Below are positions 3,253-19,407 of a stretch of DNA of 64,000 nt, piece by piece. A program made the translations under genes and the position numbers. Position 1 is the stretch's first letter. Every line of letters begins with the position of its first letter. Below the pieces are notes generated by a model. That model made no database searches. It worked only from the letters and a program-made list of their open reading frames with translations, and was not told the DNA's origin. This DNA comes from Pantoea agglomerans (GTDB lineage: Bacteria > Pseudomonadota > Gammaproteobacteria > Enterobacterales > Enterobacteriaceae), in the NCBI RefSeq assembly GCF_021397715.1, contig NZ_CP090207.1:2604001-2668000 (forward strand). The letters run 5' to 3'.

Positions 3253-3956
3253 TCCCGGATTATTCCTTTCAATAATTTAAAATTATTCCCCTGCGCTTCA
3301 CGCAGGACTTCGTTCCCTGAATCACCAATATCCGACGGAAAGAGAATGTCGACTATCCATCCGCCTATACCGGACAGGAATTTCTTAGCGCACGCCGCGA
3401 TTCGCTATCAGTGCGGAATCACCAGGTGCGCTGTTTAAGCACGTTAAGACTTCATGTACAAAAGACCGCTGCATTTTAAATTTTGTGACGCGACTACGCT
3501 TTTAAATTACTGGCATATGATATCAGTTGACAACCGCTAATTAATCAAAAAACCAGACCTTGAATCTGAACTCTATAGGCGATCTGCATTAATAAAATAT
3601 GAAGTTAGCTCTTTTCAACTCTCATATAATTCGTGCCATCATTAAATCAAAAGCCGACCAGCGCATCAAGACCGGATATCGGTAAAATAAGCATTTTGGG
3701 AATATTATTAATGCACTTCTTACCTGTCTATTTGATTCTCAGACACGTTCAGCTTACCGATTCATTTAAATGCCTTATCGCGCTAACAACAGCTTCTGCG
3801 TTTCAGTAACAGAGATGTGTAACCCCGCCTTCGCTTGCTGACAGATAATCTGACACTCTTGCTATAAAGCATGACTTCGATAGCCTGGTTATTTGTGCAG
3901 AAACGCCGGTGAACATATTTTATAAAGCCGGTTTCGTAGCGTTGCAGAGTTTTTAG

Positions 3957-4033
3957 TAGTCGCTGCTCAGCCACTGCTTCTGATTAACGAAACGCGGATC
4001 GGTCTCCACCAGACAGTGACTGTCGCTGGAGGG
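3957..4033 (-). pseudogene. Displaced 77-bp fragment of cdiA
   Basis: These 77 bases match 11018-11094 inside cdiA at 75 positions; the two differences are A/G after the first TCTG and C/T after CCACCAGA. The matching part of CdiA encodes residues around DSHYLVETDPRFVNQKQWLS. Orientation is the same as cdiA. On both sides similarity stops abruptly, so this is an isolated fragment, about 7 kb from its source, probably left by a rearrangement or loss of another cdiA-type gene. Confidence 0.85.
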
Positions 4034-4306
4034 TTTTCGCTGCCGGTCGCCTTCAGTAAGCCGCTGTATTTACCCGCAGGAAAATCCCTTCGTTACCGGT
4101 TTCGGCGGCGATACAGGCGTAATCCGGAAGACTGGCTCAAGGCGGGTTAACGCGGATTTACAGCATGAAAGGCTGCCTGCAACTGATATTCCAGATGGCG
4201 ACACGACGAAGGGATAAGCGAATTGCAGACCGGAAAAAAACAGTCCATTTTTCAGAGGTGCCTCGCAATTTATGTCTTAGCTATCAGCGAGTTCACCCGG
4301 AAGAAG

Positions 4307-4322
4307 GTGTATATTTGAACAG
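4307..4322 (+). promoter_or_regulatory. LexA-like box upstream of symE-like gene
   Basis: GTGTATATTTGAACAG fits the SOS box CTGT-N8-ACAG with one core mismatch (the first base) and an AT-rich centre beginning ATAT. E. coli symE is a LexA-repressed SOS gene, which makes a site 105 bases before this start codon plausible. A one-mismatch match can arise by chance. Confidence 0.4.
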
Positions 4323-4427
4323 GATAAAACAGGAAAGGAAGAGCATAACGAGAGATTATTAGCGCGGGCTGAAGGTGTCTCACCACCGACAGCCCGCTGA
4401 CCACAACCAACTATCAAGGAGTTGATT

Positions 4428-4658
4428 ATGGCTGAGACACATCATAAGCCAGGCACCACCACATCCACAACCGCCGCCAGCAGATCGCAGGCACATTATT
4501 ACAGAGTGGGGTACCGGCCTAACAGAGGCCAGCCGAGCCCGCTGCCACAGCTCACCATCAACGGCCGCTGGCTGGAAGCGCTGGGTTTTATGACCGGGCA
4601 GAAGATTGAGGTGATCACCGGGCCAGGACAGCTGATTATCCGGCTGGCTGAAGAGTGA
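4428..4658 (+). CDS. SymE-like type I toxin-family protein
   Basis: 76 residues. The C-terminal half (about residues 30-75: LTINGRWLEALGFMTGQKIEV...GQLIIR) matches the core of SymE, an SOS-induced E. coli protein with an AbrB-like fold that binds nucleic acid and is silenced by the antisense RNA SymR. The N-terminal part is Ser/Thr/Ala-rich and not conserved, and the long C-terminal tail of E. coli SymE is missing. Start ATG 4428 has AAGGA seven bases upstream. A hairpin (AGCGGGCTG-type arms near 4361-4369 and 4389-4397) lies in the leader. SymR itself could not be identified. SymE-like genes often lie close to CDI and Rhs loci. Confidence 0.78.
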   Translation: MAETHHKPGTTTSTTAASRSQAHYYRVGYRPNRGQPSPLPQLTINGRWLEALGFMTGQKIEVITGPGQLIIRLAEE

Positions 4659-4673
4659 TCGGCAGGTAAAAAT

Positions 4674-4700
4674 ATCCCGGCCTGATTGGGCCGGGATCGC
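4674..4700 (+). terminator. Stem-loop between convergent symE-like gene and orphan immunity gene
   Basis: Nine perfect pairs, 4674-4682 with 4689-4697, six-base loop, sitting between two convergent genes. Only a weak T-stretch follows on plus, so terminator function is moderate. Confidence 0.5.
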
Positions 4701-4703
4701 TGT

Positions 4704-4967
4704 TTACTGCGGATCGGATGGGGGAGATTTTCGGGCTTTACGTTCATCTATTTTGGCGAAGATCCATGATCTTATGGCAGCCGCTGTTCCTGCTATAGTA
4801 CTAGCAACCAAAATGTGTTTGATATCTGATTGTTCAATATGCACGTTATGGTTAATGATAAGTTTTACAGTTACCAAGGCTAGAGAAAAAAATATTAAAC
4901 AGCAGAAAACCATATATGCAACACTCAGAAATAATAAACCTATAGTAGGACTATTTTTTCTTTTCAT
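4704..4967 (-). CDS. Putative orphan CDI immunity protein, two-helix membrane protein
   Basis: 87 residues, AT-rich, with two predicted membrane helices (about 9-34, GLLFLSVAYMVFCCLIFFSLALV, and about 50-68, HILVASTIAGTAAAIRSWI) and a basic C-terminus. The ATG at 4965-4967 overlaps the end of the orphan toxin frame by 17 bases and is preceded by a GGATGGG-type ribosome-binding site. Position directly after a VENN-type toxin tail is the standard place for cdiI. A membrane-embedded immunity protein suits a toxin that acts on the inner membrane. No family was recognised; the role is inferred from context. Confidence 0.65.
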   Translation of the reverse strand: MKRKNSPTIGLLFLSVAYMVFCCLIFFSLALVTVKLIINHNVHIEQSDIKHILVASTIAGTAAAIRSWIFAKIDERKARKSPPSDPQ

Positions 4968-6186
4968 TTATCCCATCCTTTACAGCGTTACCAATAAACT
5001 CTCCTCCTATCGAACCGATTATATCGCCAACAGGAGCTGAGCCTGTACCTAAAACAGGGTCAAATAAAGGTGGCGCAATAAGGCCAACTGCTGTACCAAA
5101 TGCCCAGCCAGCTCCTGCGCCAGTTAAAGCACCTTTATCAGGCCCATCAGTAAATAGGGTTCCACCCGCCGCGATACCAGCATTTGCCCACACGCCCCGC
5201 CCCGGTGCCAGCGCACCAGTCACAGCCGCAGAAGCGCTTCCCCAGTAATCCCATGTTTTCTGCTGATTTTCAGGCAAGCTCTGATTCTTCTCACTGTTTA
5301 TATCAAACCACTGGTAAGTTCCATTCGCTATTTCAGCGATGGTTGCACCTGCCACAACTTTACCCACCGAGGCCGCCGGACCTAAATAAGCCGCCCCTGC
5401 TATCAACACACCATCTTTATATCCATTCACGATGACTTTGGTGATATTAGCGCCTTCCGGTAAGTCTCCCTTCGCCAGTTTGTCCAGACCCGCCTGTTTC
5501 TGCTCCGGCGTCAGACCATTAGCTTCCGCATACTGGTTCCAGGATTTTACTGCCGCACCGTAGCTGTTCATCCCCGTACCAAAGCTCAGCGCATTATTCT
5601 CAACCGCGTTCTTACCCGCCTGCGCACCCGCCACAACATCCGCCGTGCTGTCTCCGGCCACGCCGCCCGCAAGGCCCGCCGCCAGCGTCCCCAGCGCGCT
5701 GATGGTCTGCCGCTGCTCCTCACTCAGGTCTTCGCGCTTAACTCCCGGATACATCTGCTGCGCGATGTACTCGCCCATCGCCGCACCCGAGGCACCCGCA
5801 AGTGCAGGATTACCCGACGCGTATGACGTCACCGCGCCTACCACCGCGTGCGCAATCAGGTTTGCCTGAACGTTCACCACCTCTTTGCCGTCCGGGCCTT
5901 TTGTGGTCGTCAGCGTATGTATCTGCTCCGCCAGATAAGGTGCGGCCGCCCCGCTCACCGCCTGGGCAATGTTGCCCCCCGCCAGCCCCTGAATCGCTGC
6001 CGTCGCCGCCTGGATACCCTGCTGCACCGGCCCGCCGGTTCCCATTCCGCCAGCCAGCATCTCCCGGTTGTACAGCGTCTGATAGACCTGTCCGGTGATG
6101 TCGGCCACGGACGGCTCCTGACCCGGGTTCGCTTTCCGCCACTGCGCCTCGGCGTCCTTCTTCTGGTCCGGTGAGATGTTCTTCAT
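4951..6186 (-). CDS. Orphan CdiA C-terminal module (pretoxin-VENN plus alternative toxin), no own start
   Basis: The open frame continues upstream to about 6349 and starts resembling CdiA at 6306 (IFDKEKEQ...AAQLLAEIGSQAGDIARTQGEIA), where a stop codon and a hairpin precede it; the ATG at 6184-6186 is internal and weakly placed. From about residue 95 to VENN the protein is almost the same as CdiA (91 of 97 residues). After VENN (5593-5604) come 217 residues unrelated to the CdiA tail: a Lys/Asn/Gln-rich linker and then long Gly/Ala-rich hydrophobic stretches (VLIAGAAYLGPAASVGKVVAG; GAGAGWAFGTAVGLIAPPLFD; GDIIGSIGGEFIGNAV). This looks like a pore-forming or membrane-depolarising toxin. Such orphan cdiA-CT modules are known downstream of cdiA genes and are thought to be silent until recombined in. 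Confidence 0.75.
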   Translation of the reverse strand: MKNISPDQKKDAEAQWRKANPGQEPSVADITGQVYQTLYNREMLAGGMGTGGPVQQGIQAATAAIQGLAGGNIAQAVSGAAAPYLAEQIHTLTTTKGPDGKEVVNVQANLIAHAVVGAVTSYASGNPALAGASGAAMGEYIAQQMYPGVKREDLSEEQRQTISALGTLAAGLAGGVAGDSTADVVAGAQAGKNAVENNALSFGTGMNSYGAAVKSWNQYAEANGLTPEQKQAGLDKLAKGDLPEGANITKVIVNGYKDGVLIAGAAYLGPAASVGKVVAGATIAEIANGTYQWFDINSEKNQSLPENQQKTWDYWGSASAAVTGALAPGRGVWANAGIAAGGTLFTDGPDKGALTGAGAGWAFGTAVGLIAPPLFDPVLGTGSAPVGDIIGSIGGEFIGNAVKDGINEKKK

Positions 6187-6318
6187 CTTCTCCGTGGCCG
6201 CTCTGGTAGCCGCTATCTCACCCTGCGTCCGCGCAATATCCCCCGCCTGGCTGCCGATTTCCGCCAGCAGCTGCGCCGCCTTCAGCCGGTTCTGCTCCTT
6301 CTCTTTATCAAAGATAAC

Positions 6319-6345
6319 TCCCAGCCGGGTGGCTGGGATTAATTT
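6319..6345 (+). terminator. Stem-loop between cdiI and orphan module
   Basis: Eight perfect pairs, 6319-6326 with 6331-6338, GGGT loop. On plus it is followed by TTAATTTTT, on minus by GTTATCTTT. It separates cdiI from the orphan module (both minus), but the better T-run is on the plus strand, where no gene is seen. Confidence 0.5.
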
Positions 6346-6358
6346 TTCGGATTATCTT

Positions 6359-6736
6359 TTATTTAGATCTTATTCCCAAACGGAACATTTCTGTTGGAAA
6401 TAAAGGTTGCAGTATGATTTCATTATTAAAAATAAATAATCTCGGTGATAAGGCTGTAACATCATAAATATTTTCAGCAATCAAACTCAAGTTTGACCTG
6501 AAAATAGGAATGCTGGCATCATCTACAAGAACGAATACATCCGCATTTTTCATGCAATCTATATTCAATAAATCATCAATATTTTCATAATCAGAATATT
6601 CAATTTCCGGCCATGAAACACCCCCACTTACAAAAGGATATTTATTTAAAATATCAATAGCTTCTTTCTTTTCTTGGCCTTCAACAATTCCGAAATCAGC
6701 ACTAAGCGCTTCTTGACACTCTTCAAATAAAGTCAT
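6359..6736 (-). CDS. cdiI: CdiI immunity protein for the main CdiA toxin
   Basis: 125 residues, acidic, soluble, without signal peptide, directly after cdiA (5 bases between the cdiA stop and this ATG) with GGTAGAGAAC as ribosome-binding region. Base composition is clearly more AT-rich than cdiA, typical of swapped CDI immunity genes. Position is the main evidence: cdiI follows cdiA in all cdiBAI loci and its product neutralises only the matching toxin by direct binding in the cytoplasm. A soluble acidic partner suits a cytoplasm-acting nuclease-type toxin. Sequence family not recognised. Confidence 0.8.
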   Translation of the reverse strand: MTLFEECQEALSADFGIVEGQEKKEAIDILNKYPFVSGGVSWPEIEYSDYENIDDLLNIDCMKNADVFVLVDDASIPIFRSNLSLIAENIYDVTALSPRLFIFNNEIILQPLFPTEMFRLGIRSK

Positions 6737-6741
6737 GTTCT

Positions 6742-9700
6742 CTACCTGTTTAGCTGCTTCAATATCGTTTCAAAAGCTTTTTCGTTACCCTCAAATGGTA
6801 TGACCTGCTTAACCGCTTTTCCTGGCCCCTTACCTTGAGAATAATCCCATATATTGATATGAGTGCCTTTGTCTGGATCATAATCAACACGCCAACCAAC
6901 TTTACCGTCGCTGGATTGCCGCCCAATAACTTTCCCATTTCCAGCACTTACTTCCAGCCGTCCAATCACAGGTTTAGAATCAGCACCTAAATTACCGACA
7001 ATATCCAATGCTTTATTTCGGGCGCTTTCCCAATTTTTCTCAGGGGAAAGTATTTGTTCAATTCGATTTCCTGGTTGTGTACCAGGTTTAATTTTCCCGA
7101 TTCCAGTAGCGATCCCTGCCGCACTGGTTCCTACCACCTGAGCCAGAGAGTTTATCACGAGCTGCTTCGCTTCAGGTGAGTCACCGGACATCAGCGCATT
7201 ATGAATCGCCGCATTTCTGTCCGCCTCAAGCTGGATCGTCGTTACCTGAAGGATTGAAAGCTCGCTCTGTTCTGCCGAACTCAGACCGCCATCAGCACGG
7301 GCTTTTTCCAGCAACTCACTGGTACGGTTAGCATAATCAGTCTGTAACCTGCTAACTTCATTCGCTTTATCAACACAGTCCTGAGCGCCTGTACACTCCA
7401 CCACACGCTTTTGTTGTGCCGCTGAGATCTGCTTGTACTTCTCGGTGACTGCTCCTTCACAGGATTTGCTGCCCTGACACTGCGACATTTCATGAACGCG
7501 AGACTGGTTTTCCTGCACACTCAGCGCATTATTCTCAACCGCATTTTTACCCGCCTGCGCGCCCGCCACAACATCCGCCGTGCTGTCACCCGCTACGCCG
7601 CCCGCAAGACCCGCAGCTAACGTCCCCAGCGCACTTATCGTCTGCCGCTGCTCCTCAGACAGGTCTTTACGTTTAACGCCCGGATACAGCTGCTGCGCGA
7701 TGTACTCGCCCATCGCCGCGCCCGATGCGCCCGCCAGCGCCGCATTGCCCGCTGCATATGAGGTTACCGCACCCAGCACTGCGTGCGCCATCAGGTTCGC
7801 CTGGACATTAACCTTACCGTTCGAGTCCGTGGTCCGCTTATGTATTTCCTCCGCCAGGTACGGTGCCGACGCACCGCTTACCGCCTGCGCCAGGTTCCCG
7901 CCCGACAGGCCCTGCACTGCCGCCGTCACCGCGCTGATGCCCTGCTGCAGCGACGAACCCGTGCCGAACGGCTTCATCGCCGTGTCGTAGGCCTGCTTCG
8001 CCACATCCGCATCCGTGAACGGCTTGCCGGACGCGGCGAGTTGTTCTCTGGCCGCCTTCAGCGCCGCCGGGTCCTGCTGCGCCTGTATGCCCGCTATCTC
8101 ACCCTGCGTCCGCGCAATATCCCCCGCCTGGCTGCCGATTTCCGCCAGCAGCTGCGCCGTCTCCATCCGCCGCTGCTCTTTCTCCTTATCGAAGATTTTA
8201 TCCAGCCCCGGATTCGCACCAGCCACGTCGCGGCTCAGCGCTGCAACGTCCTGCGCCTGTTTTTCCTTATCGCGGATAACGATAGTGCCGTCGCTCACCG
8301 CCGACTTCGTCACCGAGTCCGCGCTGCCGCTGTCGTTCAGCCCCGCCAGCAGCCCGTTCGCCATGTTGCCGGCAAACTGTCCGCCGATGCTGCCGCCGGT
8401 GCTGATGCCCGCGCTCTGGTGCTCTGTTTTGTAATCCGCGTGGTTCGCGATGTCGCCGAAGCCCAGCGTGCCGGTGTCGAGCCGGTTTTTATCCGCCGTC
8501 GCCGTCGAGCTGATGACCGCACCGTTCAGCTGGGTGTGCTCACCCGCCGTCACGTCAAAGCCGCCCTTCCCGGCAAAGATGCCGGTCTGTTCCGCCACGC
8601 TCTGCCAGTTGCTGTGCATCTTATCCCGGCTCAGGTTGAGGCTTGCGGAGCCGGTCATTGAGCCGAAGGTGACGCTGCCGCCCGCGCTGGCGCTCTGCTG
8701 CTGACTGTCGTAGCGGTCGCTGTCCTGCTCTGAGGTCAGCGTCAGGGTGCGTCCGCTCTCCACCGTCACGCGTTCGCCGCGCGCCTGCGCGCCGGTCAGC
8801 GTGGTGTCGCGTCCGGCGTTCAGGCTGAGGTCCCTGCCCGCCTCCAGCATGGTTTCGGTGTGGGTCAGCCCGTTGCCGTTCTCTCGGCCTTTGCCCGCGT
8901 TGACGCTGGCCGACACGCTGATGCCGTAGCCGCCCGAACCCGCGCCGACGCCGACGCCGAGGCTGCCGCCTTTGCTGCTGTTTTTGCTGTCGGTGCGTTC
9001 GCTGTTCTGCGCCGACAGCAGGCTGATGTCGTTTTTCGCCGCCAGCGCCAGGTCGCCGCCCGCCGTCAGCCGGCTGCCCTGCACGAGGATGTTGCCCGCG
9101 CTGCCCGGCTGTGCGCCGGTGGCGGTAATGGCCAGGTTACCGCCCGCGCCCAGCGCACTGCCCTGCGCTTCACGGCTTTCGGTGCGGGTCTCGCTTTTCG
9201 ACGACTGGCTGCCGTACGAGGCGCTGACGCCGATGGTGTTGGTTGCGCCTTCATCGTAGCCTTTGTCGCCCGGCTTCAGGCCCGCGGCGGCGTTTCTGGC
9301 GTTCGCCGCGTCGGTCTGTGCGCCGTCCATCTGAGCCGCCTGCGCCGCCTGCGTCGCGGTCAGCGCGGCTTTGGTGGCCTGCAGCGCCTTCAGCCGGTCA
9401 TCACCGGTCTCGCTGGCCGTCCGGGCGGTCTGCACCGCCGTGTTCAGCGCCGCGCCGGCGGTGCCGGACAGCGCCAGCGTCAGGCCGCTCTGCTTCTGTT
9501 CTGTCTTCGTCAGGGCGGTATGGCTGTTTTCTGCCGCACTGATGTTCACGTCGCTGCCGCTCAGCGTCAGGTCTTTTCCGGCGATCAGATCGCTGCCGTG
9601 CACCTTCAGCTGATTGCCTGTGCTGAGGGTAACGCTGCCGTCGCTGCTGCCAAGGGTGCTGCCCCTGCTGAGCGTGCCGGTGCTGTCGGTGGTGCTCTTC

Positions 9701-12700
9701 TGCATCGCCTTACCGGCGGTAAAACCGATGCCGCCGGTGCCCATCAGGCCCGATTTTTTCTCCTCGCGCTGGTGCGTTTCCTCACGGGTTTCGCTGGCGG
9801 TGGTGACGGTCAGATCGCGCCCCGCGCTCAGCCCGACGTCCCGGGTACCGGCGACGTTGCTGCCGGTGATGCCGATATCGCGGCCCGCCTCAAGCAGCAC
9901 GCTGTCGCCGCTCAGGGTGGTGCTGAGCGCCTGGCGATCGTGCAGCTCGTCGTGGGTTTCCAGACTGCTGCCCGACAGCAGCCCTTTGCTGCTCTGTCTG
10001 CTGTGTTCGGTAAGATCGGTACGGCTGTTGCCCGCGCTGAGCACGATATCGCGCCCGGCACTGACGCTGAGCGCGCCGCCCGCCGTGACGTCCGCTGCCG
10101 TAGCGCGGATATCCTGTCCGGCACTCAGCTGCAGCGCGCCGCCGGTGGTGATGCGGGTGCCGGTATCGCTCTGCTGAGTCAGGCGACGGTAGTTATCGCT
10201 TCCCCAGCTCTCATTTTCGCTGTGCTGCGTGCTGACCGTGGAGAGCGTCAGATCGTTGCCGGCCTGAATGCGGGTGGTGCCGTTCTCTCCGGCGTTGCCG
10301 ATGTCGCTGGCGGCCAGCGTGATGTTGTTCAGGGCGCTCAGCGTCAGCGCGCCGTCACTGCCCTGTACGTAAATACCGGCAGGACGATCGACCCGGCGGT
10401 CGGTGCCGTTATCGCGCAGCATCGACTGGCTGGTGATATCCCGTCCGGCCAGCAGCGACACCTGCCTGTCACCGCTGATGATGCCGCCCAGGTTAGTGAT
10501 ATCCTGACGGGTGGTGAGATTCACCGTATTGCCGCTGATGTAGCCGCTGCTGGTCAGCGACTCTGCCGTCAGCTGCGTCACGTCGCGCCCGCGGATCGTG
10601 CCGCTGTTGGTGATGTCGTCACGCGCTGTCAGCGCCACGCTACCGCCCCCGAGCAACGCGCCGTCGCCGGTTAAATCTCCCTCCTTCAGCTTCGCATAGA
10701 CCTGTGGCACCAGCACGGTCTGCTGCGTGCCGTCCGGCAGCGTCACCGTCTGATTAACCAGCCAGACGATGTCGCTGGTCAGCCGCGCCATCTGCGCCGG
10801 GGTCAGCGCCACGCCCGGCTCCAGCTGATACGCCTGGGCGAAGGCTACCCCATTATTCATCAGCCCGCGATACTGTTCTTCGTCGCTGGCGTAGCCGCTG
10901 AGATAGCGGCTGCCGGTCAGCTGAATAATCTGATCGCGCACCAGACGCTGTTCATAGTAGCCGTCGCCCAGCCGCTTCAGCATCTGGCTGCCATCGGCTG
11001 TCAGCGCGTTCTGCATGTAGTCGCTGCTCAGCCACTGCTTCTGGTTAACGAAACGCGGATCGGTCTCCACCAGATAGTGACTGTCGCTGGAGGGCTGCAG
11101 ACGATAGAGGCTGTTATCTGGCAGCCGGATATCCGGGGAGACGGCGCGGATCACCGGCGTAACGCTTTGTCCATCGACCAGGGTTGCGGGCAGCGTCAAA
11201 GAGAATTTCTGGCCCAACGGAAGCAATAACGGACGATCTTTCAGGCTACCCAGCTTATCGAGCGTTAATGCGCTGTCGTAGCGCTGGCCCGCGGGAAGCA
11301 ACGGGCTGCCTTGATCCGCCGCGCCGAGCGCGACCGTGGCAGAGTCCAGCTGGCCGCTTACCGCGCCCACCGCAGCGGCCTGGGTCGTCACGGCCTGCAA
11401 CTGACGGTTGCCGGTCTGATAACCGTTACCCTGTGGCGCGGCGTTCGCCTGCCAGCTCAGGGTCTGCAGATCGATGGTTTCGGTTATCGGTGCCGGACGA
11501 TAGTCGCTGCGGCTTTTGCCCTGCGACGTCTTGGTTCCGCCCAGTTTCTTTTTCTTTTTCTTCGCGTACCAGCGCATCACGGTACCCTGGTCGGTGGTCA
11601 CCCGGGTGCCTTGGGTCGCCAGGTTATTCAGCTCACCAATCTCGCCAGCCAGCAGCGCACCGGCCACTATCTGGCTATCCTGGTTGGTCAGGCGATCCGC
11701 GCTGAAGGTCATGTTACCGCCCGACAGGATCTTGCCCGGATCGCTCTCTTTAATCTGGGTTTCTTCCACCACCCGCTGATAGGTGTATTCATAAAACTCA
11801 CTGCCGCTGGTGCCATCCGGCATCTTCGCGGTGTGTACGTTATATTTATTTTTTTTGCTGTTATCCACCTGATCCCAGTCGAAGCGATCGGTATGGCCTT
11901 TCAGCACCGCGTCATGATGCTGGCTGTTTTCCGTGATGACCGTGGTGGTGACAAGATTGCGGTTGCTGTTGTTGATTTCCGCCATCGCAATCGTCGCGTC
12001 ATGCCCGGCCTCAATAGTGGCACCCTCATTATTGAGCTGCCGTCCCTGTCCGGTGGCCTGATTATTCGCATCCAGCTCTCCGCCAAGATGCAGATCGCCA
12101 TCGCTGTAAATCAGCGCATGATCGAGGTTGTTTATCGTTTCAGCCGCCACGTCAAGCCGCTGCCGTGCCGCAATCACCGCGGCTTTGCCTGCCTCGCTAA
12201 GGTTGTTCAGCAGCGTGGCGGCAATGGCGATATGATCGCCAAAAATGCGGCCGCTACCGGCGTTATTGACCACGCGGGCCACAAGGTGGGTCAGTTCACC
12301 ATCGATCAGCCCACGGTTCTCCAGCGTATCGGCGGCGGTGATGTGGGTCTGCTGCGCACTGATTTCCCCGCTGGCCTGGTTACTGACGTTCTGAGCGGTC
12401 AGGAACAGTGCCTGCTGAGCAGTGATCGCCCCGTCGTTAGTGACAGTGCCGCCGGATGTCAGACGCAGCGTGCCATTCGCGCTGACCTCGCCCTGGTTGT
12501 AGAAATCGTCTGCCAGGATGATGCCAAGATTCCCCTGCGATGCGACCTGCCCGTCGCCACTCAGAGAGGCAGCGATGATCTGCGCCTCTTTATCGGCGAC
12601 CAGCGTGCCCTGGCGGTTATTCAGCGCCAGCGTCTGGCCCTGAGCGCTATCCTGAATCGTCAGGGTATCGGCTGAAGAGATCAGCCCGCTGACATTATCC

Positions 12701-15700
12701 AGCGCCTGCTGGATGGTCAGCGCCAGTCGGGTGTTAGCCCGCAAGGCGCCCTGACTGTTGTCCAGCGAGCTGGCCTGAACGCTCAGCTGGTCCGCTTCAA
12801 TTCCTTTGCCGCTCTGCTGCGTATCGCGGTTAATCAGCAGTGGCGTCGTGATATCCAGCCCCCGATCGCTTTTTAGCAGCCCGCCACTATTATCAAGCTG
12901 TTGGGTCAGCGCCAGGCTGGCTGTTCCGATGCTCTGAAGCTGACCGGATGTGTTAATCATCTGGCCTGCCATCAGCGTCGTGGTGCCGGCTGAAAAGAGT
13001 TTACCGTTCTGGTTCTGCAGCAGGTTCTGGCCGAGGTTAAGCGTTAACTCTTTACCGCCCTGAATCTGCCCCTGCTGGTTGTCCAGACTGCCGCTGTCGA
13101 TGCGGGTATTGCCCGATGCGGCAATCAGTCCCTGCTGATTTGTCAGTGCCTGACCGGCGGTATTAATCGTTACATCGCCCGCCGATTGAAGTTTGCCCGC
13201 GCTGTTATTCAGCGCCTGGCCGTTAATGCTGAGCCCGCCGTTACCCGCTATCTGCCCCTGGCTGTTATTCAGTTCAGCGCCGATCAGCGTCGCCTGATTG
13301 CCCGCGGCGATAAAGCCGGTCTGGTTGTTTATCCCGCCGCTGCGCAGCGTCAGATCGTTAAGTGCAATGATGCCGCGCTGGTTACCACTGTCGCTGTTGA
13401 TCAAGGCATGACCCTGAGTATCCAGCGTCAGGTCGCTGCCCGCCTGCAATAATCCGCCCTGATTCTGCAGTTCACCGGTGGTCATCGACAGCAAATCGCG
13501 GCCGCCGGTCAGCGTACCTTCACGGTTGTTGACGTCACCGGCCTGAATCAGGCTACCCTGACTGCCGGTAATAAAGCCCCGCTGGTTATCGATCTGACCA
13601 GTGTATAACGTCAGCACTCCGCCGCTGTAGAGGCCGCCGGTGGTGCCACTGTCGCGGTTTACAAGGCTATTACCGTGGCTATCCAGTTTCAGATCGCCAG
13701 CCGACTCGATTCTGCCCGCCTGGTTATTCACTAATCCGCTATCGAGTTGCAGCGTTCCCTTCGCGCCTAACTGCCCCTGCTGATTACTGAAGGCCTGCTG
13801 CCGGGTATCAACAGTAATATTTTTTCCGAGGATCACCCCGCCGTTGCTGGTGATCTGCCCGGTCGCCAGACGCAGATCGCCCCCCGAGACGATGCCCGCA
13901 CGCTGACCACTGTCGTTATTGATCAGCGCTGCGCCCTGGGTGTTAAGCGATAGTGCCTCGCCCGCCTGCAGCAGACCGCGCTGATTGTCCACGCCCGCGG
14001 TTTCCAGCGTCAGTGAACCCTCGGCGGAGAGGATGCCGTCGATATTGCTGAGCGCACCGCTATTAAGTTGCGCATTTCCAGCCGACGCCATCACACCGCT
14101 GTCGTTGTCGGTCTCGCCACTGTGCAGCGTCAGATTGCCGCCAGCAATCACGCCGCCGGAGTCGCCGCTTTGCTGATTGATCAGCGCCTTTCCGTGAGTA
14201 TCCAGCAACATATCGCCGCCGGACTGCAGCCGCCCGGCACGGTTGTTCAGCGCGCCGCTCGCCAGTTGCAGCGTTCCCTTTGCACTCAGCAAACCGCCCT
14301 GCTGATTAAGCTCCTGCTGATGCGTATCAATGATGACGTTCTGGCCCTGAATAACGCCCCTGTTGCCGTTAACCTGCCCGGTCGACAGTTGCAGATCGCC
14401 GCGCGCTACGATGCCGCCACGCTCGCCACTGTCGCTATTGGTCAACAGTGCGCCCTGCGTATCCAGTGAAAGCGTCTCAGCGGACTGTAACAGACCGCGC
14501 TGGTTGTCGAGCGCGCCGCTATTCAGCACCAGCGGACCTTCTGACATCAGCGTGCCGTCGGCGTTGTTCAGCGTCCCGCTATTGATGGTCGTCGCAGACG
14601 CCGCGGCAATCATGCCGTGCTGGTTATTGGTCTCGCCACTGAACAGCGAGAGCGAACCACCGCTGAGTATGCCGCCCTGACCGCTGTCACTGTTGATCAG
14701 CGCCTGTCCGTGGGTATCAATCAACATCTCGCTGCCGGACTGGATCACGCCGGCGTGATTATTCAGCTCGCCGGTGGTGAGATTAAGACCACGTTGCGCC
14801 ACCAGATTACCGCGGCTGTTATCCAGCCCGCCCAGTTGCGTATCCGCCACGATCTGATGACCGAGCAGAACGCCATCCCTGTTGTTGATGCCCTGACTGT
14901 CACTGTTCAGCTGCTGTGCGGCTTCGATGCGGCCCTGGGTATTATCTATGCCCTGCCCGATTGCCAGCGTGGCGTCACCGCCCACCGCAGCAATCCGGCC
15001 CTGCTGATTTTCCAGGCGACTACCGTTGAGATGCAGGTTCTGACCGGCCAGCAGCGACCCCTGGCTATTAGTCAGCGCCCCCTGAACGGTGACCCGCAGA
15101 TCGCCCTGATCAGCCGCCAGCAGCGTACCGCCGCGGTTATCCAGCTCGCCGGAGGAGAGGCGCAGCGTGCCACCGCTCTCTATCCGTCCAGCCTGATTAT
15201 CTGTGGTGCCCGCAACGGCGATCGTCATCTCGCCCGCTGCCCGCTGCGAGAGCAGGCCCTGCCGATGATTCAGCGAGTCCGCCGTCAGCGTCACCGTCTG
15301 GGCCTGGGTCTCTCCCTGAGAGAGGTCGAGCTGTCCGCCGCTCAGATTCAGCGCGCCCGCCGACAGCACGCTGCCCTGGTTGCCCGCCAGCTGGGTGGTG
15401 TTGAGCGTCAGCGCACCGTCACCTGCCAGCTGTATCGTGCCCTGCTGGTTATCGAGATAAGGCGTATCCAGCTGCAGAGAAGGCCCGTTGCCGGCGATCA
15501 GGCCGCTGCGGTTTTCAATCCGTTGCGCCTGCAGATGGGTATCGCCTTCATTGATAATGGTGCCCTGATTGTTGAGCAGTGAACCGGTCCTGAGCGTCAG
15601 CGCATCCCGGTTTTGCTGACGCAGCAGGCCGCGATTGTTACTGATGTTTTGTGCCGTGACGGCGAGATTGCCCGCTGCCAGTTTGCCATCATCGTTGGTT

Positions 15701-17136
15701 AACCCGGTGGCGGCCTCTACCCGCAACGTCCTGCCCGCAACCGTAGCGCGTGCGGTGGAGATATCCGCCTGGGTCGCGGTCAGGGCGATCGCGTCCGCCG
15801 CCGTCTGGCTGTCGGCCAGATCGACCCGGCTGCCCTGCGCCTGGATCTGATTGTGTGCCAGATTTTTTCCCTGCGCGATCAGTTCGCCCTGGCTGGTGAG
15901 CACCAGATTACCGGGCTGGCTCAGCGTCCCGCTGCTGTCTGCACCCGCAGCCAGGATACCGTCGTGGCTGCTTTCAATACGCTGAGCCGTCAGCGTGGCG
16001 TGGCTGCTCGCACTCACCACGCCGCTGTTGCGTAGCGTACCGCCCGCGCTCAGCGTGACCGCCTGCTGTGAAAGGATTTTTCCGCTGTTACTTTGATCGC
16101 CCTGGCTGGCTAACTCCATCGGCGCCTGGCTTTGCAGCGTACCGCTGTTTTCCAGCCGGCCATCAACAGAGAGGCGCAGCTCACCCGCACTGGCGCCCAG
16201 TTCGCCCGCGTTACGGACTCCGACGCCTTTTTCCGTACCGGTCAGGGTGATTTTATTGGCATACATCCCGCCAATGGCCGCCACGTCGAGCGCAAAGTCA
16301 GGACGGGTTGTCTCGTCACCCGGTTTGACGCTGGTGACGTTTCCCTCTGCTGCTACCTGATTTTTACCGGTCACCACGTTCAGTTCGCGGGCATGAATTT
16401 TCGCGTTAACGGCCACCGACTGGGCGATGATCTGGGTGTAGTCGGCATCCGTCCCGTTAAAGCCGTTACCTTCGATATTGACCCGACCGCCGTTAACGTC
16501 AAAGCCTTTCAGCTGACCGTTTTCCATCAGCACCTGGCCGGTGGTCAGCGTATTGCGACTGGCATTGATGAAACCGCAGCCGTTACAGGTGATGCCGGAG
16601 GGATTAGCGATCACCACCGCCGCCCGCTTACCGGCCACCTCTATAAAACCATTGAGCTGGCTGGGATTGCGGCTGTTAACCTCGTTGAGGATCACGCTGG
16701 CTTCCTGCTTTGAAAGCCACGGGTTAGCCGCGACCATGCCGCCGATCTGAGTCTGGGTGTTCTGATGACTGTTGTTCAGGATGGCGCCGCGCCCGTCGAC
16801 ATCCAGCTGGCTAAACTGGTTGCGGGATACGCCCTGGCTGTTCGGAGTCTGGATATTGATCTGCGGCAGTCCGTTAGCCGTCGCCATGACCGTTGGCTGC
16901 TGGTTAGCCGGTGCCCGGCCGTCAGCCACGATATTCGCCTGCACCGGCAGGCTGATGACGCCCGCAGCCAGCCACAGTGAGAAGCTGATCGGTGTAATAC
17001 GCAACCGCGCTTCTGCACGCGTGGCGCGCTGGCGACAACGGGCCATGCGAGAGTAACCGCTGCGGGCAATATCGGGCACCACCATGAGCATGCCGCGAAC
17101 CCGGTTAAAGATGATGCGATAGCAAAGTTTATTCAT
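6742..17136 (-). CDS. cdiA: CdiA: contact-dependent inhibition effector, filamentous two-partner-secretion toxin
   Basis: About 3464 residues from ATG 17134-17136, chosen because MNKLCYRIIFNRVRG is the start of an extended signal peptide; a GTG three codons upstream is less likely. Order of parts: extended signal peptide (1-70); TPS secretion domain (about 70-320, with NPSGITCNGCGFINASRNTL); FHA-1 repeats (about 350-1420); a middle region that should contain the receptor-binding part; a Tyr/Pro-rich region (about 1750-2170) with a hexalysine run; FHA-2 repeats (about 2170-2850); pretoxin region ending in VENN (encoded at 7528-7539); and a 265-residue toxin tail. CdiA is exported by CdiB as a cell-surface filament and delivers its tail into neighbouring bacteria. 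The tail begins with a cysteine-containing entry part (CQGSKSC, CTGAQDC) and ends with a small domain containing WRVDYDPDKGTHINIWDY. Confidence 0.95.
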   Translation of the reverse strand: MNKLCYRIIFNRVRGMLMVVPDIARSGYSRMARCRQRATRAEARLRITPISFSLWLAAGVISLPVQANIVADGRAPANQQPTVMATANGLPQINIQTPNSQGVSRNQFSQLDVDGRGAILNNSHQNTQTQIGGMVAANPWLSKQEASVILNEVNSRNPSQLNGFIEVAGKRAAVVIANPSGITCNGCGFINASRNTLTTGQVLMENGQLKGFDVNGGRVNIEGNGFNGTDADYTQIIAQSVAVNAKIHARELNVVTGKNQVAAEGNVTSVKPGDETTRPDFALDVAAIGGMYANKITLTGTEKGVGVRNAGELGASAGELRLSVDGRLENSGTLQSQAPMELASQGDQSNSGKILSQQAVTLSAGGTLRNSGVVSASSHATLTAQRIESSHDGILAAGADSSGTLSQPGNLVLTSQGELIAQGKNLAHNQIQAQGSRVDLADSQTAADAIALTATQADISTARATVAGRTLRVEAATGLTNDDGKLAAGNLAVTAQNISNNRGLLRQQNRDALTLRTGSLLNNQGTIINEGDTHLQAQRIENRSGLIAGNGPSLQLDTPYLDNQQGTIQLAGDGALTLNTTQLAGNQGSVLSAGALNLSGGQLDLSQGETQAQTVTLTADSLNHRQGLLSQRAAGEMTIAVAGTTDNQAGRIESGGTLRLSSGELDNRGGTLLAADQGDLRVTVQGALTNSQGSLLAGQNLHLNGSRLENQQGRIAAVGGDATLAIGQGIDNTQGRIEAAQQLNSDSQGINNRDGVLLGHQIVADTQLGGLDNSRGNLVAQRGLNLTTGELNNHAGVIQSGSEMLIDTHGQALINSDSGQGGILSGGSLSLFSGETNNQHGMIAAASATTINSGTLNNADGTLMSEGPLVLNSGALDNQRGLLQSAETLSLDTQGALLTNSDSGERGGIVARGDLQLSTGQVNGNRGVIQGQNVIIDTHQQELNQQGGLLSAKGTLQLASGALNNRAGRLQSGGDMLLDTHGKALINQQSGDSGGVIAGGNLTLHSGETDNDSGVMASAGNAQLNSGALSNIDGILSAEGSLTLETAGVDNQRGLLQAGEALSLNTQGAALINNDSGQRAGIVSGGDLRLATGQITSNGGVILGKNITVDTRQQAFSNQQGQLGAKGTLQLDSGLVNNQAGRIESAGDLKLDSHGNSLVNRDSGTTGGLYSGGVLTLYTGQIDNQRGFITGSQGSLIQAGDVNNREGTLTGGRDLLSMTTGELQNQGGLLQAGSDLTLDTQGHALINSDSGNQRGIIALNDLTLRSGGINNQTGFIAAGNQATLIGAELNNSQGQIAGNGGLSINGQALNNSAGKLQSAGDVTINTAGQALTNQQGLIAASGNTRIDSGSLDNQQGQIQGGKELTLNLGQNLLQNQNGKLFSAGTTTLMAGQMINTSGQLQSIGTASLALTQQLDNSGGLLKSDRGLDITTPLLINRDTQQSGKGIEADQLSVQASSLDNSQGALRANTRLALTIQQALDNVSGLISSADTLTIQDSAQGQTLALNNRQGTLVADKEAQIIAASLSGDGQVASQGNLGIILADDFYNQGEVSANGTLRLTSGGTVTNDGAITAQQALFLTAQNVSNQASGEISAQQTHITAADTLENRGLIDGELTHLVARVVNNAGSGRIFGDHIAIAATLLNNLSEAGKAAVIAARQRLDVAAETINNLDHALIYSDGDLHLGGELDANNQATGQGRQLNNEGATIEAGHDATIAMAEINNSNRNLVTTTVITENSQHHDAVLKGHTDRFDWDQVDNSKKNKYNVHTAKMPDGTSGSEFYEYTYQRVVEETQIKESDPGKILSGGNMTFSADRLTNQDSQIVAGALLAGEIGELNNLATQGTRVTTDQGTVMRWYAKKKKKKLGGTKTSQGKSRSDYRPAPITETIDLQTLSWQANAAPQGNGYQTGNRQLQAVTTQAAAVGAVSGQLDSATVALGAADQGSPLLPAGQRYDSALTLDKLGSLKDRPLLLPLGQKFSLTLPATLVDGQSVTPVIRAVSPDIRLPDNSLYRLQPSSDSHYLVETDPRFVNQKQWLSSDYMQNALTADGSQMLKRLGDGYYEQRLVRDQIIQLTGSRYLSGYASDEEQYRGLMNNGVAFAQAYQLEPGVALTPAQMARLTSDIVWLVNQTVTLPDGTQQTVLVPQVYAKLKEGDLTGDGALLGGGSVALTARDDITNSGTIRGRDVTQLTAESLTSSGYISGNTVNLTTRQDITNLGGIISGDRQVSLLAGRDITSQSMLRDNGTDRRVDRPAGIYVQGSDGALTLSALNNITLAASDIGNAGENGTTRIQAGNDLTLSTVSTQHSENESWGSDNYRRLTQQSDTGTRITTGGALQLSAGQDIRATAADVTAGGALSVSAGRDIVLSAGNSRTDLTEHSRQSSKGLLSGSSLETHDELHDRQALSTTLSGDSVLLEAGRDIGITGSNVAGTRDVGLSAGRDLTVTTASETREETHQREEKKSGLMGTGGIGFTAGKAMQKSTTDSTGTLSRGSTLGSSDGSVTLSTGNQLKVHGSDLIAGKDLTLSGSDVNISAAENSHTALTKTEQKQSGLTLALSGTAGAALNTAVQTARTASETGDDRLKALQATKAALTATQAAQAAQMDGAQTDAANARNAAAGLKPGDKGYDEGATNTIGVSASYGSQSSKSETRTESREAQGSALGAGGNLAITATGAQPGSAGNILVQGSRLTAGGDLALAAKNDISLLSAQNSERTDSKNSSKGGSLGVGVGAGSGGYGISVSASVNAGKGRENGNGLTHTETMLEAGRDLSLNAGRDTTLTGAQARGERVTVESGRTLTLTSEQDSDRYDSQQQSASAGGSVTFGSMTGSASLNLSRDKMHSNWQSVAEQTGIFAGKGGFDVTAGEHTQLNGAVISSTATADKNRLDTGTLGFGDIANHADYKTEHQSAGISTGGSIGGQFAGNMANGLLAGLNDSGSADSVTKSAVSDGTIVIRDKEKQAQDVAALSRDVAGANPGLDKIFDKEKEQRRMETAQLLAEIGSQAGDIARTQGEIAGIQAQQDPAALKAAREQLAASGKPFTDADVAKQAYDTAMKPFGTGSSLQQGISAVTAAVQGLSGGNLAQAVSGASAPYLAEEIHKRTTDSNGKVNVQANLMAHAVLGAVTSYAAGNAALAGASGAAMGEYIAQQLYPGVKRKDLSEEQRQTISALGTLAAGLAGGVAGDSTADVVAGAQAGKNAVENNALSVQENQSRVHEMSQCQGSKSCEGAVTEKYKQISAAQQKRVVECTGAQDCVDKANEVSRLQTDYANRTSELLEKARADGGLSSAEQSELSILQVTTIQLEADRNAAIHNALMSGDSPEAKQLVINSLAQVVGTSAAGIATGIGKIKPGTQPGNRIEQILSPEKNWESARNKALDIVGNLGADSKPVIGRLEVSAGNGKVIGRQSSDGKVGWRVDYDPDKGTHINIWDYSQGKGPGKAVKQVIPFEGNEKAFETILKQLNR
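6745..7539 (-). other. CdiA-CT: toxin tail of CdiA from VENN to the end
   Basis: 265 residues, the variable, exchangeable part. First about 150 residues: probable cytoplasm-entry domain with two CxGxxxC-like pairs and a hydrophobic stretch near its end (LVINSLAQVVGTSAAGIATGIG). Last about 100 residues: toxin domain with conserved-looking polar clusters (GRQSSDGKVGWRVDYDP, GTHINIWDY, KQVIPFEGNE). Small size, charge and a single conserved-looking His suggest a nuclease of the kind found at the ends of Rhs/WapA/CdiA proteins, but no named family could be assigned. Confidence 0.55.
12900..16100 (-). repeat. FHA-1 repeat array inside cdiA
   Basis: Dozens of degenerate units of about 20 residues following the pattern LxNxxGxLxSxGxLxLxxxxLxN (for example LDNQRGLLQSAETLSLDTQG and the near copy LDNQRGLLQAGEALSLNTQG), encoding a beta-helical filament. 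Some units are near-identical at DNA level, as in segments around 13900-14000 and 14450-14520, which gives scope for unequal recombination and filament-length change. Confidence 0.85.
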
Positions 17137-17176
17137 AATGCGCACAGTCCATTGTCAGCAATAGGGATGAATAGGG

Positions 17177-18880
17177 TTAATAGTTCCAGTTGACGCTGAA
17201 GCCAAAAGTGACCGGATCGGTTTTAAAGCCATCGGGTTTCGACAGTGGCGTACCGGCAAAAAAGTCGTAGCTGAGACTGGCAGGCGTGATCGCACCGCGC
17301 AGTCCGACCACGCCACCCGCCAGATGACGGCCAACGGGTCCGCCCTGAGTAGCGCTGTGACCGCCCACTTCGCCGTAATCAACGCCCAGATAGAGCTCCT
17401 GGGCAGGCAGCGGCGTCTGCCAGGCCAGGGTGTTCTGCAGCGTCCAGCCGCGACTGGCGCTGAGGGTGCGTTCACCATCAAATCCACGCACCGTCCAGCG
17501 GTTGCCAATCGAAAACTCATCCTGCGGTGTCAGCGGGGTGTTACTCATCTGCCGACGATATTGGATGTTGTAACTTAAATGCTGCTTACCCAGCGTAAAG
17601 GGTGTTGTCAGCCCGGCCTGCCAGCTGAGAATTTTTGATAGCGCCGTGGCGTACGTGGAATCCTGCCAGGACTCCTCCCAGGCGGGCATGGCGCCAAACC
17701 AGCGCGTACCGCGCTGATAGCTGACACCGGCATCCAGCGTCGCCGGACCGATGTAGTGACGATGTGACAGACCGAGTCGCCAGGCGCTGGTGCGCCGCTT
17801 CTGACTTTCAATTTCGGTGTCATCGATAAAATTGCGCGACTCTCTGACCAACACATCCGCGCTGACGGTGGTTTTGGATGACGCGTTGCGGTGTAAAACC
17901 CGGCTGGCCTGCAGATCCAGTGAGCGGCTTTTACCGGCGTAGAGGAAATCACGGCTGTAGCCCGCCACCGTCTGGTGGTAGTCGTAATCGCTGGCGGTAA
18001 CGCCCAGCAGCCAGTAGCCCAGCGGTACCGAGTAGTGGCCTGACAGACTTTTGCTGCTTTTTCGCCCGGCGAAGCCGAGGTCACGACTGGCGGTGAGATA
18101 AAAAAGATCGCTGAGCGAGGTAGGGTTATCCAGCGCCAGCATCAACCCGCTCTGGTAACGTCCGGTGCTTTCGGTACCGGAATCATCCAGCCAGGCACCA
18201 AGCCGCCAGAAACGATGCTGTGTACGCTCGATCACAATGTCGCTTTCACCCGGCTTCTCACCCGGCCGCAGCGTCATATGCGCTTCGACACTGGGCAGTC
18301 GTTGCAGGTTCTCCAGCCCCTGCTCGATGTCACGCAGATCCAGCAGATTGCCCGAATGCGCCGGTAGCGCAGACCACAGGTTCACATAGTGAGACGATGA
18401 AGGTGTCAGCATCACATGACGCACTTTGCCAGGCACAATCAGGAAGCGCAGTTCGCCCTGCCGCAGATCCTGCTGCGGTGCCAGTACCCGTGTTGTGACC
18501 CAGCCGTGGTTAATCAGCCGGTTCTGCAGAATCGACATCAGCTGACTGATGCCTTTTACGCCCAGGCATTGACCATTGGCCTGGCTGGCAAGGCGCTGCA
18601 ACGGCACCCAGTGCGGCAGCGCCTCCTGCCCGGAAAGCGTAACCTGATGGATGACAAAACAGGGCGTTTCGTGCGGAAAAGTGAGATGTGAAGGCGACGG
18701 AACCGGTTCGGATAAGCGGATATCCGGGGCCTGAGGTTGCAGGCGTTCCTGCTGCGCTTTTTGTTGCTCCTGCTGATGCTGTAACTGCGCGTCGCCCGGC
18801 GCAGCCTGAGCCATGCCCGGGATCATTGCGCACAGCAGAATCGCGGTTGCTGAAAATCGTCCTTTATTTTCTGGCTGCAT
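17177..18880 (-). CDS. cdiB: CdiB: TpsB/Omp85-family outer-membrane exporter of CdiA
   Basis: 567 residues: signal peptide (1-26), Gln-rich linker, two POTRA domains (about 70-215, including [11 protein letters not shown] and [12 protein letters not shown]), then a 16-strand barrel ending in FGFSVNWNY with terminal aromatic residue. The TpsB hallmark VRGF (in [13 protein letters not shown]) of the substrate-gating loop and the DYGEV segment are present. CdiB threads CdiA through the outer membrane after recognising its TPS domain. cdiA starts 40 bases downstream, so both are probably on one transcript in the E. coli-type order B-A-I. Ribosome-binding site before ATG 18880 is weak. Confidence 0.95.
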
Positions 18881-18935
18881 AATAGGTCCATTTATTAAAT
18901 GTAACAGAATATATCACTCCGTATATTCCGCGTAC

Positions 18936-18963
18936 ATTATGCGCCCGGGCAATAAAATCTCAA
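18936..18963 (-). promoter_or_regulatory. Candidate sigma-70 promoter for cdiBAI
   Basis: On minus: TTGAGA (18958-18963), 16-base spacer, CATAAT (18936-18941), about 56 bases ahead of the cdiB ATG. The upstream A/T tract could act as an UP element. Predicted by eye only. Confidence 0.4.
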
Positions 18964-19326
18964 GAAAAAAAAGCAGAAAACTTACACAAAACTTACAATA
19001 CTTAACGGAAGCCCTTACTGATAAAAGTACCGATAATTACCAGTAATTCCACCCGAGTCGCGATGTGAGTGGGTAATTTTTCGCGGACACTCATGAACAG
19101 GCAACACCACAGACGTAGCGGGTTTCCGATAAAATGGCTCAATATTTATTTCAAAGCCTTCCACCTTTTATTTTACTTACCATCGGATCTGTAAATTTCT
19201 TTTTAACCTGATTTGTCATTCTGGAACGACTGTTAACTGAATAATCAAGCAGAATTTTCGGCGCGGGTGTTAAAGCGGCTACCCTGACCCATCATCCGCC
19301 TGAAAGGCCTGCCCTCCCTTTTTGGG

Positions 19327-19357
19327 TAAAAAAAAGCCTCCTCACGAATGAGGAGGC
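19327..19357 (-). terminator. Rho-independent terminator of ndh
   Basis: Perfect 9-bp stem 19336-19344 with 19349-19357, loop of four, followed on minus by an eight-base T-run. Fifty bases after the ndh stop. Confidence 0.9.
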
Positions 19358-19407
19358 CGGATAACAACAGCAGCCAGCCGCGATCGCGATCGCGTCAGGC
19401 GTGGGGG

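Follow-up and report, generated by a model that had tools for sequence, protein, structure and literature searches.

A complete cdiBAI locus of Pantoea agglomerans is followed by a second, start-less cdiA tail with a small gene of its own, which raises the question of where such a module comes from and why it is kept. Both lie in the window, that is the whole 64,000-nucleotide stretch analysed here, to which all coordinates refer. In contact-dependent growth inhibition (CDI), CdiB exports CdiA, the C-terminal toxin of CdiA is passed to a neighbouring cell on contact, and cdiI guards the producer. By analogy with the family, the CdiB of the window strain would export its CdiA and the toxin would reach a neighbour on contact, with cdiI protecting the producer. 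The resident genes and domains are these:

17177..18880, minus strand: cdiB, outer-membrane transporter of the two-partner system, 567 aa (Pfam POTRA_2, POTRA_3, ShlB)
6742..17136, minus strand: cdiA, full-length effector, 3,464 aa from its ATG (Pfam ESPR, TPS, Fil_haemagg, Fil_haemagg_2, PT-VENN; translation)
7519..7665, minus strand: PT-VENN pretoxin domain of cdiA, residues 3158-3206 (Pfam PT-VENN, E 5e-22)
6745..7062, minus strand: resident toxin domain, last 106 aa of CdiA (PDB 5t86 chain A, E 7e-65)
6359..6736, minus strand: cdiI, immunity gene of the resident toxin, 125 aa (Pfam CdiI_ImmP, PF24172, E 2e-35; PDB 5t86 chain I, E 3e-56)

The features of an E. coli-type CDI system are present: cdiB, which bears POTRA and ShlB domains and immediately precedes cdiA; a large CdiA with a TPS domain, haemagglutinin repeats and a pretoxin-VENN domain (all by Pfam); and a toxin tail followed by its immunity gene, both matching by sequence the E. 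coli CdiA toxin/CdiI complex in PDB 5t86 (chains A and I). The matched chain lacks the remainder of CdiA, and the activity of the window pair is predicted from sequence. PADLOC, run on six proteins, returned nothing. There is no second cdiI: 6359-6736 is the sole match genome-wide at E ≤ 0.01. Behind these genes lies the additional module:

4951..6351, minus strand: orphan cdiA tail, 466 codons, open frame lacking its own start (frame analysis)
5584..5733, minus strand: PT-VENN domain of the orphan tail (Pfam PT-VENN, E 9e-24)
4954..5583, minus strand: orphan toxin, 210 aa after VENN, glycine-rich, possibly membrane-acting, without a database name
4704..4967, minus strand: orphan immunity gene, 87 aa, hydrophobic segments at residues 20-38 and 52-70 (Kyte-Doolittle hydropathy)
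6319..6338, minus strand: terminator-like hairpin between cdiI and the orphan tail, at the gene end (consensus scan)
4674..4697, minus strand: terminator-like hairpin after the orphan immunity gene (consensus scan)

The layout given in an earlier note on this DNA, a cdiB-cdiA-cdiI order with a CdiA of about 3464 residues and then a start-less second cdiA tail with its own small gene, was recovered in full on the minus strand, reading frames and Pfam domains agreeing: the frame at 4951-6351 is open, a TAA closes it upstream, its first in-frame ATG (6186) lies within the pretoxin, and the immunity ORF overlaps the tail by 17 nt. A VENN-bearing, cdiA-like tail on the same strand downstream of cdiBAI, devoid of initiation and export signals (the internal ATG aside) and backed by an intact small immunity gene (4704-4967 is open), is the arrangement of the known orphan cdiA-CT/cdiI modules, now in a Pantoea genome. 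Such modules have been described in E. coli EC93 and Y. pseudotuberculosis PB1 (Poole et al., 2011; PMC3150448); as that paper presents them, they share with the window the start-less VENN tail, the separate immunity gene, the orientation, the place downstream of cdiBAI and the existence, in other species, of relatives joined to a full-length cdiA, whereas the toxin is different and the window has one module only. The orphan toxin is probably silent, because it is without a start and an export signal, and the intact immunity gene probably still shields the cell. Divergence is mostly synonymous in both orphan genes, with dN/dS of 0.09-0.17 for the toxin (three pairs) and 0.07-0.15 for the immunity gene (three pairs, three relatives), values that carry a near-saturated dS and average over resident and orphan periods. 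Terminator-like sites in the region are near chance (6 found, 4.3 expected), as are the site numbers of a promoter scan.

Searches with the orphan toxin gave no noteworthy Pfam match beyond PT-VENN and no NCBIfam or PDB sequence match, and the structural route was given up, since the all-helical model was too poor (pLDDT 45) for a fold search. A comparison is offered by the CDI ionophore toxins (Halvorsen et al., 2024; PMC11630599), described as having a five-helix ionophore domain and very hydrophobic immunity proteins of 72-100 residues that form a two-helix membrane hairpin; the orphan likewise pairs a nameless toxin, with a candidate glycine-zipper motif, with a small immunity protein that has two hydrophobic segments. 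The motif, GxxxGxxxG, is present in 20 of 22 aligned orphan-toxin sequences, yet also in 56% of shuffled sequences, and the likeness is one of motif and hydropathy.

The earlier note proposed that this strain can switch toxin by crossing over within shared pretoxin DNA (about 5593-6310 with 7528-8210). Its protein-level observations are accurate: 91 of the last 97 pretoxin residues are identical between resident and orphan, exactly as counted, and beyond VENN the two tails show no relationship (E 0.2 for the best local match). The shared DNA, on the other hand, is not one continuous repeat of ~700 bp; it falls into two blocks separated by a non-alignable middle:

5585..6029, minus strand: pretoxin repeat, orphan copy (80%, gapped, to 7520-7952)
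7520..7952, minus strand: pretoxin repeat, resident copy (partner of 5585-6029)
6210..6315, minus strand: second pretoxin repeat, orphan copy (91.5% to 8091-8196; 69-bp exact run at 6210-6278)
8091..8196, minus strand: second pretoxin repeat, resident copy (exact run at 8091-8159)

Across the shared pretoxin the orphan tail and cdiA keep the same reading frame, and a crossover there could in principle return the orphan toxin to the effector; cdiI would be lost unless the locus had first been duplicated. As cdiI has no second copy, a simple crossover would expose the cell to its own kin; a model in which an orphan replaces a resident tail, with this same drawback, is already published (PMC3150448). 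Exact runs of at least 18 bp between the two pretoxins measure 69, 30, 26, 23 and 18 bp. The longest was rejected as proof of recent exchange, the block being 60-67/69 identical in six of seven syntenic relatives; it was not found in the seventh, G044 (G numbers denote genomes). Over the last 97 codons pS is 0.44 and dS 0.67, and the sequences make no recent exchange between the window's own two pretoxins apparent.

One could suppose that the module is a reserve and owes its persistence to subpopulations in which it is regularly reloaded onto cdiA through pretoxin crossover. The in-frame pretoxin with its 69-bp run, an open toxin frame diverging mostly synonymously and the reversed resident and orphan roles among relatives (below) speak for it, as does precedent: reload of an Rhs orphan was selected in the laboratory in Salmonella (PMC3967940), and a deletion in a cdi locus of Yersinia led to the inference of such an event there (PMC3150448). 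We nevertheless hold this explanation to be doubtful, given the diverged pretoxins, the loss of the sole cdiI, and a homology that is short and patchy beside the repeats of 97% over 2,072 bp in G019 and 96.6% over 678 bp in G034; nor has a recombinant junction been seen.

The comparison covered 61 Pantoea genomes, the window's own included. Orphan-toxin relatives occur in 14 of these genomes (17 matches, many partial or weak, the weakest at E 2e-5) and orphan-immunity relatives in eight, the window's own counted in each case; a further search found relatives of the toxin at 31 loci. Full-length CdiA proteins ending in an orphan-toxin relative occupy this very locus in G013 and G019, while the one in G042 is encoded elsewhere (63-67% aa); outside Pantoea they occur in Raoultella planticola (62%), Cedecea neteri (55%) and Rahnella victoriana (45%). 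The expectation that relatives would carry the orphan tail on a full cdiA therefore holds at family level (45-67% aa); among the relatives, no full-length cdiA was seen to carry the exact variant of the window. The resident toxin of the window is in turn the orphan of another Pantoea, G028, at 92% identity. The Pantoea comparison thus yields reciprocal resident and orphan roles for both window toxin families.

The same comparison narrows one resident/orphan join to 30 bp. Between the close relatives G013 and G042b, the join falls in a 30-bp zone within the pretoxin, 6,492 bp apart, with 281/284 bases resident-like to its left and 486/487 orphan-3-like to its right; it lies ~400 bp before VENN, whereas the borders reported by Poole et al. 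(PMC3150448) are at VENN. The outgroup G019 has the same toxin in the resident place, which makes displacement, with a new toxin coming in and the old one pushed downstream, somewhat simpler here than reloading, in an argument built on three species. Exchange may also have affected the toxin end of G013 and G019, since it is more alike (90-100% per 100-bp window) than the locus overall (90.0% over 12.6 kb). In G059 and G001 the 3' third of the resident is foreign (pS 0.57 and ~0.6, respectively) and the orphan retains the locus-type arm (pS 0.26 and 0.23).

In the window, the last 300 nt of the orphan pretoxin are 93.7% identical to the orphan of G001 and 85-90% to six other copies (five orphan, one resident), which makes them of the type that this locus has in other species, and the resident pretoxin has its nearest match in the second cdi locus of the genome (88.9%). 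A locus-type orphan beside a resident closest to the second locus is what displacement would be expected to leave behind; the typing lacks sharpness, because the window's own two pretoxins, 85.7% alike over the same 300 nt, are no less similar than some copies from different species. The pretoxin tree has 15 of 22 inner branches unsupported, and we used only its well-supported groups and the identity table.

We put at about three in four the probability that the locus is an ordinary E. coli-type CDI system with one orphan toxin/immunity module behind it, and that this orphan is, most likely, an older resident tail displaced downstream. A new pretoxin-toxin-cdiI segment would have recombined into cdiA, pushing the old tail and its immunity gene downstream; we infer this order of events, as we do expression and function in the window strain. 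The displaced pairs of E. coli FCH1 and KTE178 are alike in that the old resident pair stands downstream after replacement (Ruhe et al., 2016; PMC4927057), a comparison made within one species in that account and between Pantoea species here. The proposal of switching by pretoxin crossover is partly supported: swaps are indeed seen among relatives (G028; the G013/G042 join), but with a pS of 0.44, patchy homology and an outgroup that leans to displacement, its taking place in this strain is not supported.

The flanks of the module carry three further features:

4422..4658, plus strand: symE-like toxin gene facing the cdi locus (Pfam SymE_toxin, E 2e-17; 63.2 bits against a curated cut-off of 29)
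4361..4433, minus strand: candidate symR-like antisense RNA over the 5' end of symE (Rfam RF01809, 45 bits against a gathering score of 61, E 3e-6)
3956..4033, minus strand: 78-bp scrap of cdiA (97% to cdiA DNA 11017-11094)

The last of these, a third piece of cdiA overlooked by the earlier note, is probably the relic of a further rearrangement.

Given this comparison, why orphan modules persist, as reserve weapon, shield or fossil, becomes testable within one genus. That immunity genes can outlive their toxins is a further result: G013 and G042 keep an intact window-type immunity gene (71%) next to a toxin of which the last 37 codons are left, and in G006 an immunity relative (38%) occurs with the toxin giving no match at E ≤ 1e-4. 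These cases favour a module kept for its immunity gene alone, the toxin tail being a decaying passenger, which we regard as possible if short of probable, since the 210-codon toxin of the window is fully open with mostly synonymous divergence and in G044 the immunity gene has decayed too. It is unlikely that the module is a neutral fossil of a past replacement with no present function; the scrap at 3956-4033, the collapsed locus of G044 and a stop within the toxin match in at least six of the 31 related loci (L056, L060, L064, L066, L070, L075) would suit such an origin, but both window orphan genes are open and diverge mostly synonymously.

Across Pantoea, synonymous divergence is about halved over the ~900 cdiA codons that precede the pretoxin, mostly falling below that of flanking genes, and GC3 is raised there. 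The ratio of observed to expected codon mismatch, with the expectation computed from each segment's codon usage, goes from 0.77-0.85 to 0.40-0.58 in the dip and to 0.85-1.03 in the pretoxin; because this ratio still falls, codon bias alone is ruled out as the cause, and selection on codons may contribute. Orphan modules of four relatives contain parts of this arm. We tentatively suggest that these ~900 codons could serve as a recombination arm common to the species, through which toxin/immunity ends would enter and leave, with recurrent joins in the pretoxin and at VENN and an array often bounded by symE, so that the module would belong to a genus-wide exchange of cassettes and not to a private reserve; the dip would then be a signature, measurable and open to refutation, of exchange by way of this arm. 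Among the matches listed by a literature search on this subject, none dealt with CdiA. In the 61 genomes, symE lies in opposite orientation downstream of 24 of the 68 CdiB-type genes; the CDI cluster of P. mirabilis BL95, the one case in the account concerned, likewise has symE in opposite orientation, within or behind its cdi orphan modules (PMC11278526).

The cdi locus of the window consists of a complete cdiBAI set, all on the minus strand, followed on the same strand by an orphan module, that is, a start-less cdiA tail with an immunity gene of its own, and is closed by symE:

17177-18880, minus strand: cdiB
6742-17136, minus strand: cdiA, 3,464 aa, bearing the resident toxin tail
6359-6736, minus strand: cdiI
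4951-6351, minus strand: orphan cdiA tail, an open frame behind cdiI bounded at its upstream end by a stop codon
4704-4967, minus strand: orphan immunity ORF of 87 aa, overlapping the end of the orphan tail frame
4422-4658, plus strand: symE

In domain content, cdiB, cdiA and cdiI fit an E. coli-type CDI locus. The orphan frame holds a copy of the cdiA pretoxin with VENN, which leads into an unrelated tail of 210 aa; the frame starts no earlier than about codon 2978 of cdiA, and so carries almost nothing of the arm, the ~900 cdiA codons before the pretoxin. An earlier note had counted 91 of 97 pretoxin residues as identical between resident and orphan and had called the tails after VENN unrelated: the count is exact, and only a chance local match (E 0.2) is found between the tails. 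The pretoxin DNA is indeed shared, not as the single run then described but as two blocks with a non-alignable middle. Terminator-like hairpins lie directly 3' of cdiI and of the orphan immunity gene, although the number in the region is near chance (6 versus 4.3 expected, sd 1.9). Beyond symE, a 78-bp scrap of cdiA (3956-4033, 97% identical to 11017-11094) is probably the relic of a further rearrangement. An Ail/OmpX-type outer-membrane protein gene (2689-3252) lies 3' of the array in six of seven syntenic relatives and is absent there in G013, one of the same-genus Pantoea genomes (G numbers).

Published work already describes orphan modules and how they exchange with cdiA, and covers the reserve model as well as the displacement model, in which a new toxin enters and the old resident is pushed downstream (PMC3150448, PMC4927057, PMC9086364). 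Reloading, which at a cdi locus puts an orphan back on cdiA, has been obtained by laboratory selection at an Rhs locus (PMC3967940). The window locus is another instance of this known arrangement; PMC3150448 mentions Pantoea twice, for Rhs-like Ucp proteins and in a reference.

Matches to the orphan toxin occur in 14 of 61 same-genus genomes, the window's own included, and at 31 loci of the collection searched. At four of these 31 the match forms the end of a frame in which 2,500 or more codons come before it (Ca. P. gossypiicola, 66% identity; Raoultella planticola, 62%; Cedecea neteri, 55%; Rahnella victoriana, 45%), and in Enterobacter vonholyi at least 905 codons precede it in a frame running off the stretch; two further loci are edge-cut, and the other 24 are broken copies or short frames, with no more than 413 codons ahead of the match. 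Three of 17 matches from the genus search sit in frames of 3,374-3,469 aa (G019, G042 and G013), those of G019 and G013 being at the window's own syntenic locus. The resident toxin domain is matched in six of 61 genomes, own included, and its best match (G028, 92%) belongs to an orphan frame of 706 codons that has its own cdiI (54%) and follows a 2,994-aa cdiA frame carrying a different tail. Both toxin families of the window therefore take the opposite role in some relative. On plasmids, the orphan toxin family is matched on 49 records (36 from Escherichia), 34 of them predicted conjugative. A collapsed locus in G044 (contig C26, oriented 2758-4997) retains cdiB matches over ~447 of 567 residues and then a pretoxin-VENN tail, with nearly all of cdiA gone.

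Over its last 300 nt, the window's orphan pretoxin shares 93.7% identity with the G001 orphan and 85-90% with six further copies at the same locus, the remaining copies reaching 70-84%, often over short alignments. The resident pretoxin has its nearest match in the second cdi locus of its own genome (88.9%), followed by the window orphan (85.7%); with small margins, this is the pattern that displacement would leave. As 44% of synonymous sites differ between the two window pretoxins over the last 97 codons, no recent exchange between them is visible, and far better recombination substrates are present in G019 (97% over 2,072 bp) and G034 (96.6% over 678 bp). The earlier note had proposed that the orphan could replace the main tail by a crossover in the shared pretoxin, deleting cdiI. 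No second cdiI match was found in the window's genome, so a plain crossover would cost the cell its immunity to kin, an argument already made in PMC3150448.

A join of the form predicted for such a crossover is seen between G013 and G042, which share 97.5% identity across 14.9 kb of the cdi locus. G013 equals the G042 resident at 281 of 284 bases to the left (15100-15383) and the third G042 orphan at 486 of 487 bases to the right (15414-15900); in the 30 bp in between both G042 copies are alike and one base is private to G013. The join lies within the pretoxin, ~400 bp before VENN, and 6,492 bp of G042 are missing from G013. The polarity of the event matters, however: in the outgroup G019, too, the resident toxin is that of G013 (90-100% identity per 100-bp window, 13001-16800), so the simpler history is one in which G042 gained a new toxin by insertion. 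Counting against this polarity, the toxin ends of G013 and G019 may have been exchanged too, since the locus as a whole is only 90.0% alike over 12.6 kb. The resident toxin and immunity regions of G042 and G001 are 92-98% identical (windows 15201-16500) with unrelated pretoxins, a join of another type, close to VENN. At the place of the array end and ail-like gene of G042, G013 (oriented 17731-20548) has two 772-bp copies, 99.6% identical and resembling an IS element, possibly IS1-like.

Mosaic joins were scanned in 190 pairs from 20 modules, six of 26 modules being left out as too short or without an anchor. Identity switches from high to low in 34 pairs and in the opposite sense in another 16. 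Relative to the anchor before VENN, the 34 switches fall at -596 to -574 (5), -546 to -543 (11), -303 to -278 (8) and -4 to +48 (10), the pairs being non-independent and the second group coming from two modules only. Against G034, G019, G013 and the G042 copy of the window-type locus, cdiA shows 0.53-0.66 synonymous differences per site in codons 1-2100, falling by about half, to 0.23-0.36, in codons 2101-3000 (~8137-10836), just upstream of the pretoxin; three flanking genes give 0.39-0.56 and cdiB 0.54-0.62. In G059 and G001 the dip is confined to codons 2101-2400, past which the residents are foreign for their 3' third, and one orphan in each retains the low-divergence, locus-type arm (pS 0.26 and 0.23, respectively). 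We read the dip as inter-species recombination through the arm. Codon constraint is a possible alternative. The dip persists in a codon-usage control. GC3 of the window cdiA rises from 0.71-0.73 to 0.82-0.86 in codons 2101-3000.

Of the two chains of PDB 5t86, a CdiA toxin/CdiI complex, one is matched by the resident toxin domain (E 7e-65) and the other by cdiI (E 3e-56). For the orphan toxin, no match was found in NCBIfam or among PDB sequences, and in Pfam nothing past the PT-VENN domain except weak unrelated matches (E 0.07 and above). With a glycine-rich toxin and a small immunity protein that has two hydrophobic segments, the pair resembles the CDI ionophore toxins described in PMC11630599. 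A glycine-zipper is present in 20 of 22 aligned sequences but also in 56% of shuffles, so the motif does not discriminate, and the structure model (pLDDT 45) is too poor for use. In three pairs with relatives each, dN/dS is 0.09-0.17 for the toxin and 0.07-0.15 for the immunity gene, divergence being mostly synonymous and dS nearly saturated.

The symE gene has a symR-like antisense RNA match (joint span 4361-4658). SymE matches number 85 in the 61 Pantoea genomes, 80 of them above the curated cut-off, and 30 lie at most 35 kb downstream of a CdiB-type match, at 24 of 68 CdiB-type matches, which take in distant transporters of the same family. All 30 are oriented opposite to the CdiB-type gene, and the 35 kb upstream of the 68 yielded none; a rough genome-size estimate ignoring contig ends predicts about 1.1 by chance. 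Single cases of symE are published beside CDI (PMC11278526) and T6SS genes (PMC7764402, PMC3942780). In G006 (contig C25, 143004-143415), with no toxin match at E <= 1e-4, a relative of the orphan immunity gene (38%) adjoins symE. The second cdi locus of the window's genome (contig C1, 4145001-4172000) has a 3,566-aa CdiA frame with a 153-aa ORF behind it, and also contains symE and a decayed orphan.
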